From: Opitutales bacterium
Lineage (GTDB): Bacteria > Verrucomicrobiota > Verrucomicrobiia > Opitutales > Oceanipulchritudinaceae
Assembly (NCBI GenBank): GCA_020831485.1
Contig: JAFIGG010000035.1
Coordinates: forward strand, 1-37,000
Length of the DNA stretch: 37,000 nt
Reading direction: 5' to 3'
Part shown: in pieces, positions 1,617-19,732 of the stretch
How the letters are laid out: each line of letters begins with the position of its first letter
Position numbering within the stretch: the first letter of the stretch is position 1
Notes under the pieces: generated by a model
Databases searched by the model: none
What the model was told of the DNA's origin: nothing
Seen by the model: only the letters and a program-made list of their open reading frames with translations
Made by a program: the position numbers and the translations under genes

Positions 1617-2704
1617 TGTGCAGAAACCTCAACAATTTTATCAATAGTTTGCCCCTTGAGAGCACGGACGAGGCTACTGAATTCCGTCTGGATTTTCCTA
1701 TCGCTGAGGGGCCGTTTGCGCCCAATTTGGGGTCGATTGAGAGCAACTATCCAGGGGCCCCTGATTGGCTCAGGGATTGCAAATTCGGAATCTGGGTTCA
1801 TCTGGGCCCACAGTCTATGGGCGAGAGTGGAGACTGGTATGCGACTTGGTGGGCCCAGCGGATCATTGATGTCATTGACCGCTATGATCCGGATTTCATT
1901 TATACGGATGGAACCGGAGACCAGCCGTTCAGCGGGGCTGATACCGGAACTGGATTCAAATGTGATGCCCTTCAACGGGTGCTGGCGCATTATTATAATC
2001 GCAGCCTGCAGACCAGAGCGAAGGTCGACGTGTTCAGTGTGATCAAGTTCCGTCCGAAAACCAACGGCACCGTCACAACCAAGGAGTTTGGGATCCCAGA
2101 GGATATCGTAAGTGATGAACCTTGGATCGCGGAGGTTCCTGTGGGCGATTGGTATTACAGGCCCGGCATTGTTAATGATTCTGGAATGGTCATTCGGTAT
2201 CTGGTCGAAGCCGCTGCTCGGGACGGCAATGCTGCGGTGTGTGTGTCTCCACAGCCAGACGGTTCCCTGGACCTGGGAAGCCGTCAGATGCTCGGTGAAG
2301 TTGGGCAATGGTTGGCTGTAAATGGATCAGGAATCTATGGTAGCCGGTCATGGAAATGTCCCGGTGAGGGCGAAGTCGTGGATGGTAAATTGAAGATGTT
2401 GCCCGGCGGAAAGCTTGATCGGGAACATGCCGATTTTCCTTTTGATGAAAATGACTTCAGGTTCACGCAAGGTTCTGACGGCGCAATCTATGCATTTTGC
2501 ATGGTTGTCCCAGAGCCAGGTGCCAAATTGAGGATACGTTCAATGGGGTCTTCCTCCCGACTGTTTGAAGCCGGGGTAAAGAGTGTGGAATTAATGGACG
2601 AACCCGGCCTGAAGCTGGACTGGCGTCAGGATGAGGATGCTTTGACAATTATTTGTCCCGACCAGTTCCGGTCTAAAACAGCAGTTGCCTTCAGGGTTTA
2701 TTGA
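1616..2704 (+). CDS. GH29 alpha-L-fucosidase-like protein with internal deletion
   Basis: The N-terminal part contains the GH29 hallmark CKFGIWVHLGPQS followed by GDWYA. The next residues, WWAQRIIDVIDRYDPDFIY, belong much later in the family barrel, at the strand that carries the nucleophile Asp (here YTDG). The stretch that normally lies between, including the HHD-type active-site histidines, is absent: roughly 130-180 residues are missing with no change of frame. From there to the C-terminal beta-sandwich the order is normal (DWYYRPG, then VNGSGIYGSRSWK). The protein is 362 residues, against about 450-600 for intact relatives. No signal peptide is visible, although relatives are usually exported. 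I chose ATG at 1616, which overlaps the esterase stop, over the TTG codon just before it. The protein is probably catalytically dead, or a remnant. Confidence 0.75.
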   Translation: MCRNLNNFINSLPLESTDEATEFRLDFPIAEGPFAPNLGSIESNYPGAPDWLRDCKFGIWVHLGPQSMGESGDWYATWWAQRIIDVIDRYDPDFIYTDGTGDQPFSGADTGTGFKCDALQRVLAHYYNRSLQTRAKVDVFSVIKFRPKTNGTVTTKEFGIPEDIVSDEPWIAEVPVGDWYYRPGIVNDSGMVIRYLVEAAARDGNAAVCVSPQPDGSLDLGSRQMLGEVGQWLAVNGSGIYGSRSWKCPGEGEVVDGKLKMLPGGKLDREHADFPFDENDFRFTQGSDGAIYAFCMVVPEPGAKLRIRSMGSSSRLFEAGVKSVELMDEPGLKLDWRQDEDALTIICPDQFRSKTAVAFRVY

Positions 2705-2736
2705 CAGTCCTGATGCTTTAGTTTCTTTCCAATCCT

Positions 2737-3945
2737 ATGTTCAAAAAAGCATTACTCACTTATTTTTCTGTTTCGTGTTTTACCCTTGGTCTCGCCGCCT
2801 CCGATGTCGGGCGGGTGTTCCCATCGGAAGCCAGTTCCTATGAGGATCCGGTTACCGGAGCAAAAGTTCAGGTGCTGACGCATTCGCCGGCGGTGGATGT
2901 GCGGATCTACCAGACCCATCCGCAATGGACGGCGGACGGGGAATGGATTGTATTTCGCACCGCTGACCGATCCCGTGATGGCTACCCGCAGATCTACGCG
3001 GTGCGTGAGTCGGATGGCACGCTGGTTCAGCTGACAGAGGGCCCGGGTTTGTCCTATCGCTCACTGCGCTTGTCGCGGAAGGAGAACATCCTGTATTTTC
3101 TACGGGATTCAGACGACGGTCAGGATTTTATAAAACTGGATCTGGATCCTCTGTTTGCCGACAGCGCAGCGGGTCAGATGCGGGAAGAAGGTTATGAAAC
3201 CATTTTGGCGACTTTTCCATACAGCCGCGGCATGCTGACCCTGGATTCGTCGGAACGGATCATGTATTATTCGGTCGAGCACCCCGAGGCCGAAAGCGGT
3301 GAGACGGTGAATACGATTGTGGCCTTTGACCTCGAGGAGGGGACACATGAGGAGGTGGTTCGCAAACCTTTCAGAATTGGACACATTCAGGCGAATCCCC
3401 ACCGCGACGGTGAGATTCTCTTTTGCCATGAAACCGGTGGCGACGCCCCGCAGCGGATGTGGATCTGGCGCGAAGGCATGGAGTCAGCCGAACCTTTGTT
3501 TGTCGAAGAAGAGCTGGACTGGGTGACCCACGAAGCCTGGGCGGACGAAGATCACGTGGTTTTCAATCTGATGGGGCATACCCCGCGTTTGCGCCAGCGT
3601 CCCACCGGAATCGCGCTGATCAATGTGCGCACGAATAAGGTGCGTATTTTCGGTCAACCGGAGCCGATCTCCGGTCTGCAAAACAACATGGGCTTCTGGC
3701 ACTGCAATGTTTCGCCGGATGGCCGCTGGATCGCGGGGGATACCTTTTCCGGCAACGTCTACCTGATCGATATCGAAACTCAGGCCCAGCACCTGCTGAC
3801 CACCGGGCATGTGATGCGCCCGGACCACGCCCATCCGAGCTTCAGCTCAGACAGCCGGCGTGTGTTTATTCAGTCCGGTCGACTGTCCGATGGCGAGAGT
3901 CTGGATCTGATGGTGGTGGAGATTCCCGAGGCCTTTAAGGAATAA
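2737..3945 (+). CDS. Secreted oligogalacturonate lyase-like (PL22) beta-propeller
   Basis: A 402-residue protein with a signal peptide (about residues 1-21, ending near GLAAS) and repeated blades of the WD40/TolB type, such as HPQWTADGEWIVF and CNVSPDGRWIAGD. Order and local motifs match oligogalacturonate lyase (PL22): an N-terminal DPVTGAKVQVLT, an internal ILFCHE, and the late DHAHPSFSSD, which corresponds to the family's metal-site His-x-His block. The Gln that I recall as another metal ligand just before that block appears to be Arg here, so activity and substrate are uncertain. Classical PL22 enzymes are cytoplasmic, and export is a difference. It would act on unsaturated pectin oligosaccharides or a related uronate-containing glycan. 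It lies 32 bases after the GH29-like gene, probably in the same transcript. Confidence 0.7.
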   Translation: MFKKALLTYFSVSCFTLGLAASDVGRVFPSEASSYEDPVTGAKVQVLTHSPAVDVRIYQTHPQWTADGEWIVFRTADRSRDGYPQIYAVRESDGTLVQLTEGPGLSYRSLRLSRKENILYFLRDSDDGQDFIKLDLDPLFADSAAGQMREEGYETILATFPYSRGMLTLDSSERIMYYSVEHPEAESGETVNTIVAFDLEEGTHEEVVRKPFRIGHIQANPHRDGEILFCHETGGDAPQRMWIWREGMESAEPLFVEEELDWVTHEAWADEDHVVFNLMGHTPRLRQRPTGIALINVRTNKVRIFGQPEPISGLQNNMGFWHCNVSPDGRWIAGDTFSGNVYLIDIETQAQHLLTTGHVMRPDHAHPSFSSDSRRVFIQSGRLSDGESLDLMVVEIPEAFKE

Positions 3946-4058: not shown

Positions 4059-5028
4059 AATGTTTCTGAGTTCGTTCGTATTCCTCATCAGTCAAAGGAA
4101 TCACCGAACCATGGCGAAAATGGAAGGGGACTGAGAGCTCGTCCATCGGTTCAAATTGAGCTCCGGACAGGTCGGAAGTGATGAAGGCCTGATAGCCGCG
4201 CTGGCGGGCGTAATTATCGAGAATCAGCATCCACTGCGTATTGCCTTCATCATCTACGAGTGGGAAACATTGCGGGCCTTCATATCCGTGCAAACCGGCC
4301 AGTGAAAAATCTTCTTTGAGTGACCAGCTTCCGCCGATGGAACTCGCGGACTCCATGATGATCCGCTTGTTGGTCTCATCTTTGGTGAAACGGTAGTAGC
4401 GGTCGTTGTCCTGCACGATTGTGGTGTCGATGACCGCATGATTCTCTTCGATGTAGATAAAGGGCTCGCCGAATTCTTTAAAATCCTCTGTGTAGGCGGC
4501 CCAGATGCGGTGCTTGGCGAAGTCATCTTCGGCTGTTGTGGAGCCCCAGAAAACCAGATAACTTTCCTTCTCCGGATCGTAGATGGCTTCGGGAGCCCAG
4601 GTGCAGCCTGCTGATTCAGGGGCGACTTCGACCCGTCTGGGTTCCGACCAGTTGATCAGGTCGGTAGACTCCCAGATGATAATCGCTCGGCTACCCTGGC
4701 GCACGGCGCGACCCCAGTTGGGATTGTGATAGATGGACAGGTCGGTGCCGATGAGGTAAAATTTTTCCTGGTCGTGGGAGCGAATGAGAAAAGGATCGCG
4801 AACCCCTTGTTCGCCCAGCGTGTTGACCAGCACGGGCTCAGCGTTGTTAACCGCTTTCCATTCGAGTCCATCCTTGCTCAAGGCAAAATAGACTTGTTCG
4901 CCCTGAGGGCCGCTTTCACTCTTAAAGGTGGCAAATAGGTATCCGCTGGTTTCTGGCATTGGTATTGATAGAAGGGTGGTTGGGAGGATGGATACAGCCA
5001 GCAGCAGATTACGAAAACAATTCATCAA
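4054..5028 (-). CDS. Secreted GH43-like glycoside hydrolase
   Basis: A 324-residue five-bladed propeller enzyme of glycoside hydrolase family 43, a clan acting mainly on alpha-arabinosides and beta-xylosides. A signal peptide covers roughly residues 1-21 (LLLAVSILPTTLLS). Conserved acidic sites are visible: RDPF (Asp78), WAPEAIYD (Glu147), AVIDTTI (Asp201) and GYEGPQCF (Glu250, the likely general acid). Which Asp is the catalytic base is not certain from the sequence alone. The ATG overlaps the NAD kinase stop by four bases (ATGA), so it is translated as the last gene of a housekeeping operon, which is odd for a secreted glycosidase. Its stop codon lies inside an 86-bp repeat. Together with the GH51 enzyme it suggests arabinan or arabinoxylan use. 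Confidence 0.78.
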   Translation of the reverse strand: MMNCFRNLLLAVSILPTTLLSIPMPETSGYLFATFKSESGPQGEQVYFALSKDGLEWKAVNNAEPVLVNTLGEQGVRDPFLIRSHDQEKFYLIGTDLSIYHNPNWGRAVRQGSRAIIIWESTDLINWSEPRRVEVAPESAGCTWAPEAIYDPEKESYLVFWGSTTAEDDFAKHRIWAAYTEDFKEFGEPFIYIEENHAVIDTTIVQDNDRYYRFTKDETNKRIIMESASSIGGSWSLKEDFSLAGLHGYEGPQCFPLVDDEGNTQWMLILDNYARQRGYQAFITSDLSGAQFEPMDELSVPFHFRHGSVIPLTDEEYERTQKHW

Positions 5029-5927
5029 GTTGACAGTTCGTTCGGAGTGTTTTTCTGCCGTGAGGGGGCATCGCCGGCCCAGGACAGCTTATTGCGGAGA
5101 AGATTGTAGTGGGAAAAGGCGCGGGGAAGAATTAACTCGAACTGGTGCTGAGGATCGATCCTTAGCTCGATCGGGAATGCCGCCTCGCCGTCAAAGGCCT
5201 CGCGGCCGTCGGCCGAGATGCGGATGTTGCCCGAATCGGTGTCGGCGGCAACTTTGATTTCGACCTGTCCATCGAGAACAATCGCACGGTTGGAAAGTGT
5301 GTGTGGATTGATGGGTGTCACCAGCAGGACCGAGGCCTTGGGGTGGACGATCGGTCCGCCTGCGGACAGGTTGTAGGCTGTTGAACCGGTAGGCGTTGAA
5401 AAGATGACGCCATCGGCGTAGTATTGATTAACAACCTCGCCGTCAGCCGAAAGCTCGAGGGGTACTAGACGGGATCCATTGGAGCGGACAACGACATCAT
5501 TCAGTGCAAGGCATTCATGGCCATCGTTGTCGCGACAGCGAATCAGAGTGCGCCTTTCGGAGCGGTAGTTTCCTTCCAGGATGTCGGGGAAAATGCGTTC
5601 AACCTCAGCGGCACTGTAATGGACCATGAATCCGAGACGCCCGAGGTTGATGCCCAACACGGGAACCTCGTTGAGTGATGCCGCTTCAACAATCCCAAGA
5701 ATGGTTCCGTCGCCGCCAATCACGCAACATAGGTCGGCGTCATTCAAGGCATCTGTGGGAACGGGGAAATCTCCGATGATGGTGACCGTTTTGCCTTGGT
5801 CGGTGGCAAGTTTTTCGATGCGCTGAGCAAGGCTTTCTGCGCCGGATTTGCTGCGATTGACGACAATCGTGATTTTCTGAATAGGGGCCATTGAGGAGAG
5901 TTTGTTCACTAAAGTAGTTTGGCTCAA
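5025..5927 (-). CDS. nadK: NAD kinase
   Basis: Phosphorylates NAD+ to NADP+ in the cytoplasm. The protein (300 residues) shows the two family signatures: GGDGTILG at 71-78 with catalytic Asp73, and the NAD-binding stretch [20 protein letters not shown] near 174-193. Length is normal. The ATG overlaps the tlyA stop by four bases, which supports the long start; an internal ATG 12 codons later (MAPIQK) would be a more typical N-terminus and remains possible. TlyA next to NAD kinase is a common bacterial arrangement. Confidence 0.95.
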
Positions 5928-14415: not shown

Positions 14416-14484
14416 CTGTGTTTTTAAAGGGTTCCCGATGCTGGGGCTGGACAACACCGGGGATGCGTGTTCAATCGCTGCCTC

Positions 14485-15324
14485 ATGAGTGTTTCATTCG
14501 AAAAATACCATGGATTGGGCAACGATTATCTGGTGCTGGATCCAACGAACTGGACGGGCGATTTGGACTCGGCGCGCATCGAACGCATTTGTCACCGCAA
14601 TTATGGCTTGGGATCCGACGGGATTTTGTTCGGGCCCTTGGCGAGTGAAAAAGCGGATTTCCGTCTGCAGATATTCAATCCGGATGGCAGTGAAGCGGAA
14701 AAGAGCGGCAATGGCCTGCGTATTTTCGCCCGCTACCTGCACGACACAGGGCGTGTTTCCGGAGAGGTTTTTACTGTGGAAACCCTGGGTGGAGTGGTCG
14801 AGTGCACGGTGACGGATCCGCGTTCTTCGATCACGGTAGAAATGGGACAGGTTTCTTTCGACGCTGCCCGAATCCCGGTGAAAGGGCTTGAAGGAGAAGT
14901 GATACAGCAGGAAGCCGAGTGGCAGGGGCGCAGCTTCAAATACTCGGCGGCAACAATTGGGAATCCGCACTGTGTGGTGTTGTTGGATTCGGTCAGCGAA
15001 GAGCTGGCGCGGCAGGTTGGGCCTCTGATTGAAAAGGACCCCCGGTTTCCGCACCGGACCAACGTTCAGTTTCTGAAGGTTTTGGATCGGAACCGCATCC
15101 AGATCGAAATCTGGGAACGCGGGGCAGGGTACACGCTGGCATCGGGTAGTAGTTCCAGTGCTGCAGGCGCGGTTGCGCGGCGCTTGGGCCTGGTGGATGA
15201 AGCTATTGAAGTGCACATGCCGGGCGGTGTTATCGAACTGAACATCGACGATGCCTTCAACGTTCGCATGACCGGTCCCGTTACTCGGGTTGGGCATTTC
15301 GATTTGGACCCTGAAGCGCTGTGA
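14485..15324 (+). CDS. Diaminopimelate epimerase-like protein with both catalytic Cys replaced by Ser
   Basis: A 279-residue protein with the full DapF fold and order of motifs: FEKYHGLGNDYLVLD, LGSDGILFG, FNPDGSEAEKSGNGLR, SAATIGNPHCVVL, and IWERGAGYTLASGSSSSA. DapF converts LL- to meso-diaminopimelate with two cysteines acting as a thiol/thiolate pair. Here both positions are serine: Ser74 (codon AGC, normally in CGNG) and Ser220 (codon TCG, normally in ACG). The family Glu in GxGET is Tyr216. Three coordinated changes argue against a sequencing error. It may be a related epimerase/isomerase with another substrate, or a weak or inactive homologue. ATG 14485 is chosen because the domain starts directly after it. 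Co-directional genes follow. Confidence 0.85.
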   Translation: MSVSFEKYHGLGNDYLVLDPTNWTGDLDSARIERICHRNYGLGSDGILFGPLASEKADFRLQIFNPDGSEAEKSGNGLRIFARYLHDTGRVSGEVFTVETLGGVVECTVTDPRSSITVEMGQVSFDAARIPVKGLEGEVIQQEAEWQGRSFKYSAATIGNPHCVVLLDSVSEELARQVGPLIEKDPRFPHRTNVQFLKVLDRNRIQIEIWERGAGYTLASGSSSSAAGAVARRLGLVDEAIEVHMPGGVIELNIDDAFNVRMTGPVTRVGHFDLDPEAL

Positions 15325-15387: not shown

Positions 15388-16365
15388 ATGGAATACCGAC
15401 GTTTAGGAAAATCAGGACTTCAGGTCAGCGAGCTGTCTTACGGCAGTTGGGTCACTTTCGGCAATCAGATCGACGAAGACTTGTCGGAAAAGTGTATGCA
15501 CACGGCCTACGAGGCCGGAGTGAACTTCTTTGACAATGCGGAGGCTTACGCCAACGGGCGTTCAGAGGAAGTTATGGGGCGGATCCTGGCTCGCTCGGGC
15601 TGGAGTCGAGACAGCTTTATTGTGTCCAGTAAAGTGTTTTTCGGAACCGGCGGGGAATGGCCAACCCAACGGGGCCTGAGCCGCAAGCATGTGGTCGAAG
15701 CCTGTGATGCGGCCCTGCGGCGCTTGCAGGTGGACTACCTGGATCTGTATTTTTGTCACCGACCGGATTCGGAAACGCCGATTGAGGAAACGGTGCACGC
15801 GATGTCCCACCTGATCGATCAGGGCAAAGTGCTCTATTGGGGCACCAGCGAATGGAGTGCGGAAGAGATTCAGGAAGCGATGCGCATCGCGGACGAACGC
15901 CATTTGATTCCGCCGACGATGGAGCAGCCTCAGTACAACCTCTTGCACCGGAAACGGGTCGAGGAGGAATATGCGCCTCTTTATGACTCCAGGACGGGTC
16001 TGGGAACGACGATCTGGTCTCCTCTGGCGAGTGGATTGCTGACGGGTAAATATGTCGACGGGATTCCGGAAGGTTCCCGCTTGAGTCATGCCTCGAACGA
16101 GTGGTTAAAGGATTTGATGATGAAGGACAGGGAAGCCTGGGAGCGCAATCAGCAAAGGATTCGCAAACTGGCTGGATTGAGTGAAGAACTGGGCCTGCCG
16201 ATGGCGCATGTAGCCCTGGCTTGGTGCTTAAAGAATCCAAGGGTTTCGACGGTCATCATGGGCGCGAGCAAGGTCAGCCAGCTCGAAAGCAACCTCAAGG
16301 CGCTGGAGGCGGTTGACCGTTTGGACGACGGCCTGATGCAGCGGATTGAGTCAATTTTTTCCTGA
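15388..16365 (+). CDS. Aldo/keto reductase, K+ channel beta-subunit-like
   Basis: A 325-residue NADPH-dependent oxidoreductase with a TIM-barrel fold. The catalytic tetrad is visible: Asp49 (NFFDN), Tyr54 (EAYANGRSEE), Lys82 (VSSKVFFG) and His114 (YFCHRPD). The N-terminal MEYRRLGKSGLQVSELSYGS and the WSPLASGLLTGKY block resemble the KvBeta/YghZ branch of the family, which reduces aldehydes such as methylglyoxal. The natural substrate is unknown. It follows the dapF-like gene by 63 bases and precedes the S51 peptidase by 20. Confidence 0.92.
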   Translation: MEYRRLGKSGLQVSELSYGSWVTFGNQIDEDLSEKCMHTAYEAGVNFFDNAEAYANGRSEEVMGRILARSGWSRDSFIVSSKVFFGTGGEWPTQRGLSRKHVVEACDAALRRLQVDYLDLYFCHRPDSETPIEETVHAMSHLIDQGKVLYWGTSEWSAEEIQEAMRIADERHLIPPTMEQPQYNLLHRKRVEEEYAPLYDSRTGLGTTIWSPLASGLLTGKYVDGIPEGSRLSHASNEWLKDLMMKDREAWERNQQRIRKLAGLSEELGLPMAHVALAWCLKNPRVSTVIMGASKVSQLESNLKALEAVDRLDDGLMQRIESIFS

Positions 16366-18430: not shown

Positions 18431-19732
18431 CTAGTGGTAATCCGTCAATGGCCCGAATTCGGGTTCGAAGAGTCGGCGATAGGCGCGGAGGGCCTGGCCA
18501 TCAGTCATTCCCGAAAGCAGGTCGCAAACAAGGCGCAGGCGTTCGTCTTCGCGGGTGGCGTTGCGCAGCCAGGCTGAGAAGGGTTCGGGTATGATGTTCA
18601 GGCTACGGGCGTGGCGGCCCAGTCCGTGATCGACATAACCGCGAAAGAGTTTTTCGAGGATGCGTCCGCCCTTGAATTCGATCTCCTGTAAAGGAGCGGA
18701 CTTGAAGATCAGGTCGATGGCAATGCGCTTGTGCAGCTGGCAGACGTCATTGACCGGCCGCTCGACGGTCAGCTTGAAACGGTAACGATTGGTTTGGCCG
18801 CCCAGGGGACCTTCGCAGGGTTGCAGTGAACAGGCGTGAATGAACTGGCCGATGCGGACACTGGCCATAGGCTCGAAACCGCCTTTGCGCGTTTCTTCTA
18901 TCAGGCGCTCGAGGACTTGAAGTTGATTGTCACTCAGGCTGCGCTCGTGCTCTTCTCCCCATTCGCGCAGGCGATCCGGCGTGATAAAGCCTGCCTTGAT
19001 GCCGTCGACAATGTCGTGCAGGGAGTAGGCGGTGTCGTCTGCCCAATCCATGATCTGGCATTCGATACTCTTGACAGAATTGAAGTCCTTTCCGCGAATA
19101 CTTTCAGGCAACCCTTGCTCGCCGAAAACAAAGCTGCGGAAGGGTTCCTGTTCGTCGTAGAGGAAATGATTGGCCGGGTAGACCAGGCGGCCGTCGACAT
19201 CGTTGCGGAGTTCCGAATACAAAGCTTTGTATTTGAGCACACCGTCGATGAAGGCCCGGGTGGGGTTCATGCCTTTGGGTTCCTTTGGGCGGGCGTATAT
19301 CAGGCGGGTCAGAATGCGCAGCGTTTGCGCATTGCCCTCGAAGCCGCCCTGGTCGCGCATCAGCTCATTGAGCTTGCGTTCGCCGATGTGGCCGAAGGGG
19401 GGATGACCGAGGTCGTGCGCCAGGCCGACTGCCTCTACCAGGTCCGGGTCGATGAAAAAATCACTTCGCAGCCGCTCGCAGCTGAGGTTGAGGTATTCGG
19501 CGATCGAGCGGGCAATGCGGGCAACCTCGATGGTATGCGTCAACCGGGTGCGGTAGAAATCGTACTCGCCTGATTGAAAAACCTGGGTCTTGGACTGCAG
19601 CTGGCGAAAGGCATTGGAGAACAATACCCGGTCGCGGTCGACCTGGAAGGGATTGCGCAGATCGCTCTCCGAGCGTTTGCTCGAAGGGTGCAGGTGTTCG
19701 TAGTCGAAATCGCCGTAAAACCGATTGGTCAT
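18431..19732 (-). CDS. dgt: dGTPase-type deoxyribonucleoside triphosphohydrolase
   Basis: A 433-residue cytoplasmic HD-domain enzyme that hydrolyses dGTP (or other dNTPs) to nucleoside and triphosphate. Metal ligands are visible: His66 (RLTHTIEVARI) and the HD pair His106-Asp107 in GLAHDLGHPPFGHIGE. The N-terminal RVLFSNAFRQLQSKTQVF is typical of the family. Length fits the long Dgt type. It starts 6 bases after the aspartate/aromatic aminotransferase gene, so the two are probably co-transcribed. Confidence 0.93.
   Translation of the reverse strand: MTNRFYGDFDYEHLHPSSKRSESDLRNPFQVDRDRVLFSNAFRQLQSKTQVFQSGEYDFYRTRLTHTIEVARIARSIAEYLNLSCERLRSDFFIDPDLVEAVGLAHDLGHPPFGHIGERKLNELMRDQGGFEGNAQTLRILTRLIYARPKEPKGMNPTRAFIDGVLKYKALYSELRNDVDGRLVYPANHFLYDEQEPFRSFVFGEQGLPESIRGKDFNSVKSIECQIMDWADDTAYSLHDIVDGIKAGFITPDRLREWGEEHERSLSDNQLQVLERLIEETRKGGFEPMASVRIGQFIHACSLQPCEGPLGGQTNRYRFKLTVERPVNDVCQLHKRIAIDLIFKSAPLQEIEFKGGRILEKLFRGYVDHGLGRHARSLNIIPEPFSAWLRNATREDERLRLVCDLLSGMTDGQALRAYRRLFEPEFGPLTDYH

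Follow-up and report, generated by a model that had tools for sequence, protein, structure and literature searches.

DapF is the textbook cofactor-independent two-thiol epimerase; the alpha proton has a pKa of about 29, and inhibitors such as aziDAP alkylate the DapF cysteines. The catalytic cysteines lie at the N-termini of helices 2 and 4, the contacts to diaminopimelate (DAP) in the solved Anabaena DapF are made by N13, N66, G76, N77, N164, N197, E215, R216, G225 and T226, and no basic residue lies within 4 Å of the sulfurs in that enzyme (PMC12039745). When Cys is changed to Ser by engineering in DapF and related racemases, less than about 0.1% of activity is left (PMC8225329), and the activity of HisR C67S/C209S is greatly reduced (PMC11602996). 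Within the proline-racemase superfamily, a Ser/Cys 4-hydroxyproline epimerase still carries out two-base transfer, and a Ser/Thr trans-3-hydroxyproline enzyme, with both positions non-Cys, is a dehydratase (eLife 03275). No account of a DapF of the serine type came to light in the open full-text literature, most subscription papers lying outside this search.

Here we describe a DapF homologue with serine at both catalytic positions, encoded in a stretch of 37,000 nucleotides from an Opitutales genome (hereafter the window). It is likely to be the LL-DAP epimerase of that genome, converting LL-DAP to meso-DAP, and we propose, with less certainty, that it does so with a hydroxyl-based acid/base pair in place of the thiol/thiolate.

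The protein and its three substituted positions

The features of the gene are as follows; an alternative in-frame GTG start is possible at 14467.

14485..15324, + strand: dapF homologue of the Ser/Tyr/Ser type, 279 amino acids, from translation and family models
14701..14703, + strand: codon AAG of Lys73, the clade-specific residue adjoining Ser74
14704..14706, + strand: codon AGC of Ser74, aligned with catalytic Cys73 of E. coli DapF
15115..15165, + strand: ERGAGYTLASGSSSSAA, residues 211-227, containing the ER pair for binding the distal centre of DAP, followed by Tyr216, Ser220 and the start of the helix, which includes the clade-specific Ser223
15130..15132, + strand: codon TAC of Tyr216, aligned with E. 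coli Glu213
15142..15144, + strand: codon TCG of Ser220, aligned with catalytic Cys217 of E. coli DapF

The window protein matches TIGR00652 at 235.8 bits (cut-off 114.65) over residues 4-270 and Pfam DAP_epimerase (PF01678) at 188 bits. The original prediction had read Ser74 (AGC), Ser220 (TCG) and Tyr216 in place of the Cys, Cys and Glu of the family, and translation together with alignments to two reference DapFs, the solved structure 9mro and the E. coli enzyme, confirmed this reading. The alignment to 9mro upholds both Cys-to-Ser positions, and in that to E. coli DapF, Ser74 (within AEKSGNGLRIF) falls on C73, Tyr216 on E213 and Ser220 on C217, the last two both within WERGAGYTLASGSSSS. 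The Glu replaced is that of GxGET (E. coli E213), and the substrate-contacting Glu208 of WERG is kept as E211. Sequence, fold, ligands and context all place the protein with DapF; because it has Ser74 and Ser220 where DapF has its two catalytic cysteines (CGN, ACG), we file it as a variant rather than as an ordinary DapF.

An AlphaFold2 model built on 19 sequences (pLDDT 92, pTM 0.87) has the DapF fold, its best PDB match being DapF 8qzy (Z 37.1, rmsd 1.8 Å over 273 residues). O-ureidoserine racemase came close (Z 35.7), CntK was also matched, and the proline-racemase and PhzF families lay further off in the same structural search. In the predicted model, Ser74 and Ser220 stand immediately before helices 75-87 and 221-233, the positions that the catalytic cysteines occupy at the start of these helices in DapF. 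The protein is not a recognisable proline racemase or hydroxyproline epimerase, with PRK13970 scoring 14.5 bits (cut-off 442) and no proline racemase among its Pfam matches.

Two neighbouring genes in the window were also noted. An aldo/keto reductase near the Kv-beta subfamily (15388-16365, + strand; 329 bits, cut-off 365) begins 63 bases downstream of dapF, and a dGTP triphosphohydrolase (18431-19732, - strand) scores 351 bits against an anti-phage dGTPase model with a cut-off of 400.

The Ser-type clade and its active site

Our sample comprised 173 distinct DapFs, drawn across the phylum of the window (Verrucomicrobiota) together with homologues in genomes labelled as other phyla. There was no mixed state: 82 sequences were Ser/Tyr/Ser and 91 were Cys/x/Cys, with x being Glu in 75, Val in nine and Ile in seven. 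In a maximum-likelihood tree, built after the three trait columns had been masked, a single branch (SH-aLRT 100), with a stem of 1.02 changes per site, separates the Ser/Tyr/Ser sequences from all the others. Every homologue of at least 55% identity from the window's order carries the triple, as do such homologues from genomes labelled Planctomycetota, KSB1, Lentisphaerota, Desulfobacterales, Neomarinimicrobiota, Atribacterota, Myxococcota and Pseudomonadota, and it is kept in two strongly diverged members (42-45% identity) from reduced genomes of 0.9 and 1.3 Mb. The Ser type is an old branch of DapF, and its state is shared by the whole clade, including MAGs labelled as several phyla. The phylum labels of the Ser-type MAGs from outside Verrucomicrobiota may be wrong, horizontal transfer being the alternative to mislabelling.

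When the relatives were checked at the three positions, all 82 clade members agreed with the window protein, well beyond what chance would give. Both codon sets for serine, AGY and TCN, are used at each site (63 AGY and 19 TCN at position 74; 73 TCN and nine AGY at position 220), which indicates that serine itself is under selection. Sequencing error or a pseudogene is thus ruled out by the 82 relatives and the codon switching. The tyrosine is less surprising than the serines, because Cys-type DapFs of one Verrucomicrobiota family, f30, already have Val or Ile at the position of Glu213 (GxGVT/GxGIT; L095, L097-L099, L102, L105-L107, L109, L110, L113, L115, L116 and L118), so that even with the cysteines in place the enzyme probably does not need Glu213. 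Most of these f30 genes adjoin dapL.

The substrate ligands have been retained. The window equivalents of the Anabaena contacts (N13, N65, G75, N76, N160, N193, E211, R212, G221 and S/T222) are kept in essentially all 82 clade members, as are the equivalents of His159/Glu208, and the residue corresponding to Anabaena Thr226 is Ser in most of the clade. The DAP contacts N11, N64, N157, N190, E208 and R209 and the carboxylate-binding GN/GT are all present and essentially invariant. Around these ligands the site has been remodelled: Tyr8, Tyr15, Gly50, Gln195, Glu208 (window numbering), Ala214 and others are fixed in the Ser-type clade and not in the Cys type, Ile80 is fixed where Cys-type DapF has Cys, and Ser222/Ser223 stand against Thr/Ser and Gly. 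Lys73, which directly precedes Ser74 and would, if it faces the site, set the window protein apart from Anabaena DapF, is found in 81 of the 82 members, where Cys-type DapF has Met, Leu or another residue. Tyr216 is without exception; Lys73 is less likely to be indispensable, since it is Ile in one diverged member.

Pathway, copy number and replacement by Ddh

The presence or absence of genes in genomes was assessed by profile searches. The window genome (3.86 Mb, 96.8% complete) contains the Ser-type gene as its sole DapF-family protein in a PF01678 search, and no second, Cys-type DapF was found there. A true DapF elsewhere in the genome, one of the alternatives raised in the original prediction, was thus not found in this genome, nor in almost any of the remaining Ser-type genomes: within the window's order each of the Ser-type relatives searched has a single DapF homologue, and 16 of 19 named Ser-type genomes have no further one. 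Contamination is an unlikely cause of the single copies, since all sampled genomes at the level of the order agree. Two genomes, G038 and G041 (14.1 Mb), carry an added Cys-type DapF and may be mixed bins.

Other second copies were of different kinds. Beside the Ser-type DapF, two members of the window's phylum, G164 and G190, encode a Cys/Cys homologue (L230, L231) with Phe in place of the DAP-binding Arg209, which makes it unlikely to be a DAP epimerase. The FEFG that replaces the DAP-binding WERG/YERG in this paralogue recurs in L083 from G041, where N64 is also changed to Glu, and the paralogue is probably a racemase of another amino acid. In a Burkholderiales-labelled MAG, a broken second Ser-type dapF lies about 4 kb from the intact gene (L081/L084; G055:C19:90223-90895).

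DapL makes LL-DAP, LysA and MurE take meso-DAP, and a DNPR motif marks the DAP-adding MurE. The window genome has a DapL (589 bits, cut-off 365), a LysA-type decarboxylase for which lysA is the best-scoring model, and MurE homologues with the DNPR motif; the two over cut-off, L238 (G000:C130) and L240 (G000:C52), both carry it. Because the decarboxylase reaches 262 bits against an NCBIfam cut-off of 298, its substrate in the window's order is one that we infer. A profile search of the window genome for meso-DAP dehydrogenase (Ddh) found none, which excludes a Ddh bypass. With a source of LL-DAP, users of meso-DAP and no recognised bypass, the genome requires an LL-to-meso epimerase. The same arrangement is seen in a relative (G029) that has a single Ser/Tyr/Ser DapF, DapL at 576 bits, a LysA above cut-off at 448 bits and no Ddh.

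The divergent LysA-type decarboxylase (249-262 bits, cut-off 298; for example L085:1787-3052, - strand) is general in the window's order and reads EPGT where canonical LysA has EPGR. In the window genome, the Ser-type dapF does not adjoin other recognised lysine genes. Clusters were found in relatives, one of them in a KSB1-labelled MAG (L036):

4168-5055, - strand: dapA, 345 bits
5096-5794, - strand: dapB, 140 bits
5992-6861, + strand: Ser-type dapF, 233 bits
6885-8114, + strand: dapL, 563 bits
8116-9447, + strand: lysA-type gene, 249 bits

A Myxococcales-labelled MAG (L049) likewise clusters a Ser-type dapF with dapL (in two pieces) and a lysA-type gene (2449-3762). The lysA-type genes of the two clusters are related to that of the window genome (40-41% identity), a kinship that supports the window genome's decarboxylase as a real LysA.

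If the Ser type makes meso-DAP, then genomes without it are expected to have Ddh or a Cys-type DapF. In the same search, Ddh was present in 14 of 16 near-complete genomes lacking DapF and in three of 26 Ser-type genomes (Fisher P = 1.2 × 10-6, a value that overstates the evidence because the genomes are not phylogenetically independent). All searches together place Ddh in about 4 of 73 Ser-type genomes, and the exclusion runs in the same direction at the level of order, class and phylum. Within the window's order, three genomes (G032, G198, G224) have Ddh and no DapF, and a fourth (G023) has a Cys-type DapF in place of the Ser type. Four Ser-type genomes (G071, G133, G152, G051) also carry Ddh over cut-off; two genomes that are 90-91% complete (G150, G202) are without both DapF and Ddh, reflecting either gaps or another route to meso-DAP.

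Function, mechanism and known systems

Taken together, we consider it very likely that the window protein epimerises DAP. The serine-based meso-DAP variant put forward among the earlier alternatives thus finds support in genome content, exclusion with Ddh, operon linkage and conserved ligands, and the different isomerase offered beside it is disfavoured by the conserved DAP ligands, the dapF-dapL-lysA clusters and the Ddh exclusion. More broadly, the protein could be an enzyme of the DapF fold with another function, that is, a racemase, dehydratase or isomerase acting on a DAP-like or some other amino acid, the LL-to-meso conversion being left to an unrecognised enzyme. There are precedents for such a change, as members of the proline-racemase superfamily with a Ser/Thr or Cys/Thr pair are dehydratases (eLife 03275), and O-ureidoserine racemase, CntK and HisR (PMC11602996) are DapF-fold relatives with other substrates. 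We regard this as improbable, because the ligands of the distal DAP centre are all invariant, the gene clusters with dapL and lysA and excludes Ddh, and it is the single copy in genomes with LL-DAP synthesis, a LysA-type enzyme and MurE, every one of which would need an unknown epimerase.

Rather less probable is an enzyme that combines DAP epimerisation with a second racemase activity, such as that of glutamate racemase, the serine site broadening its specificity. PVC bacteria often lack MurI, and the DapF of C. trachomatis has both activities, but that enzyme keeps and needs both of its cysteines (PMC5885031), and its model, NF038284, scores only 64.7 bits on the window protein against a cut-off of 350. 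Although the two residues that catalyse the textbook reaction are both replaced, a catalytically inactive DapF retained for some structural or regulatory purpose is very hard to credit for an only copy that persists in reduced genomes and whose active site, including carboxylate-binding and substrate residues, is invariant across the clade.

If the window protein is a DAP epimerase, the odds lean slightly towards both serines taking part directly in proton transfer. Ser74 and Ser220, each at the N-terminus of a central helix, would then approach the proximal alpha-carbon from its two sides, one serine taking the proton and the other giving it. The poor acidity of serine might be offset by a clade-specific shell of Tyr216, Lys73, Ser223 (in place of a helix glycine) and Tyr8/Tyr15, which could lower the pKa of a serine or itself provide one base. 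As Cys-to-Ser mutants are nearly dead, serines placed in an otherwise unchanged Cys-type site would not be expected to work, and Tyr216 or Lys73 may act as one base; that either residue is one of the actual bases is a tentative proposal that we think rather unlikely. We give an even chance to the fuller picture of a widely distributed, cofactor-independent and thiol-free epimerase whose putative Ser/Ser pair is tuned by Tyr216 and Lys73.

If this is true, an enzyme essential for both cell wall and lysine would use a two-base mechanism free of thiols, and the accepted chemistry of DapF, a drug target, is probably not the sole route. A clade without either cysteine opens two questions to direct test, namely how weak bases take an alpha proton and whether the reaction depends on a thiolate, and the 82 and 91 sequences form a comparison set that pinpoints candidate compensating residues. 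Ser-type DapFs are predicted to resist thiol reagents and oxidation, and annotation or inhibitor logic built on the two cysteines would mis-call them.

Among described systems, the canonical DapFs of H. influenzae, E. coli and Anabaena (EC 5.1.1.7) share with the window protein the fold (Z 34-37, at 31-36% identity), the two-domain pseudosymmetry, the proximal and distal DAP ligands, the equivalents of His159/Glu208 and the position in the pathway. In the window protein, however, Cys73 and Cys217 are replaced by Ser, Glu213 by Tyr, Cys79 by Ile, Gly220 by Ser and the residue before Cys73 by Lys, and the protein falls in a clade of its own that has full support and a long stem. The DapF of Chlamydia (NF038284) is likewise that of a PVC bacterium, but unlike the window protein it keeps both cysteines. 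DcsC (O-ureidoserine racemase), PddB, CntK and HisR have the same fold and cofactor-independent chemistry, but as described they use Cys/Cys; CntK and HisR lie much further away (Z 23-26), whereas DcsC is structurally as close as DapF and acts on another substrate. In the Ser/Cys 4-hydroxyproline 2-epimerase, whose fold resembles that of DapF, Ser naturally stands in for a catalytic Cys (eLife 03275), but this enzyme belongs to a different family (about 15% identity by structure), has another substrate and has only one Cys replaced, whereas in the window protein both are serine.
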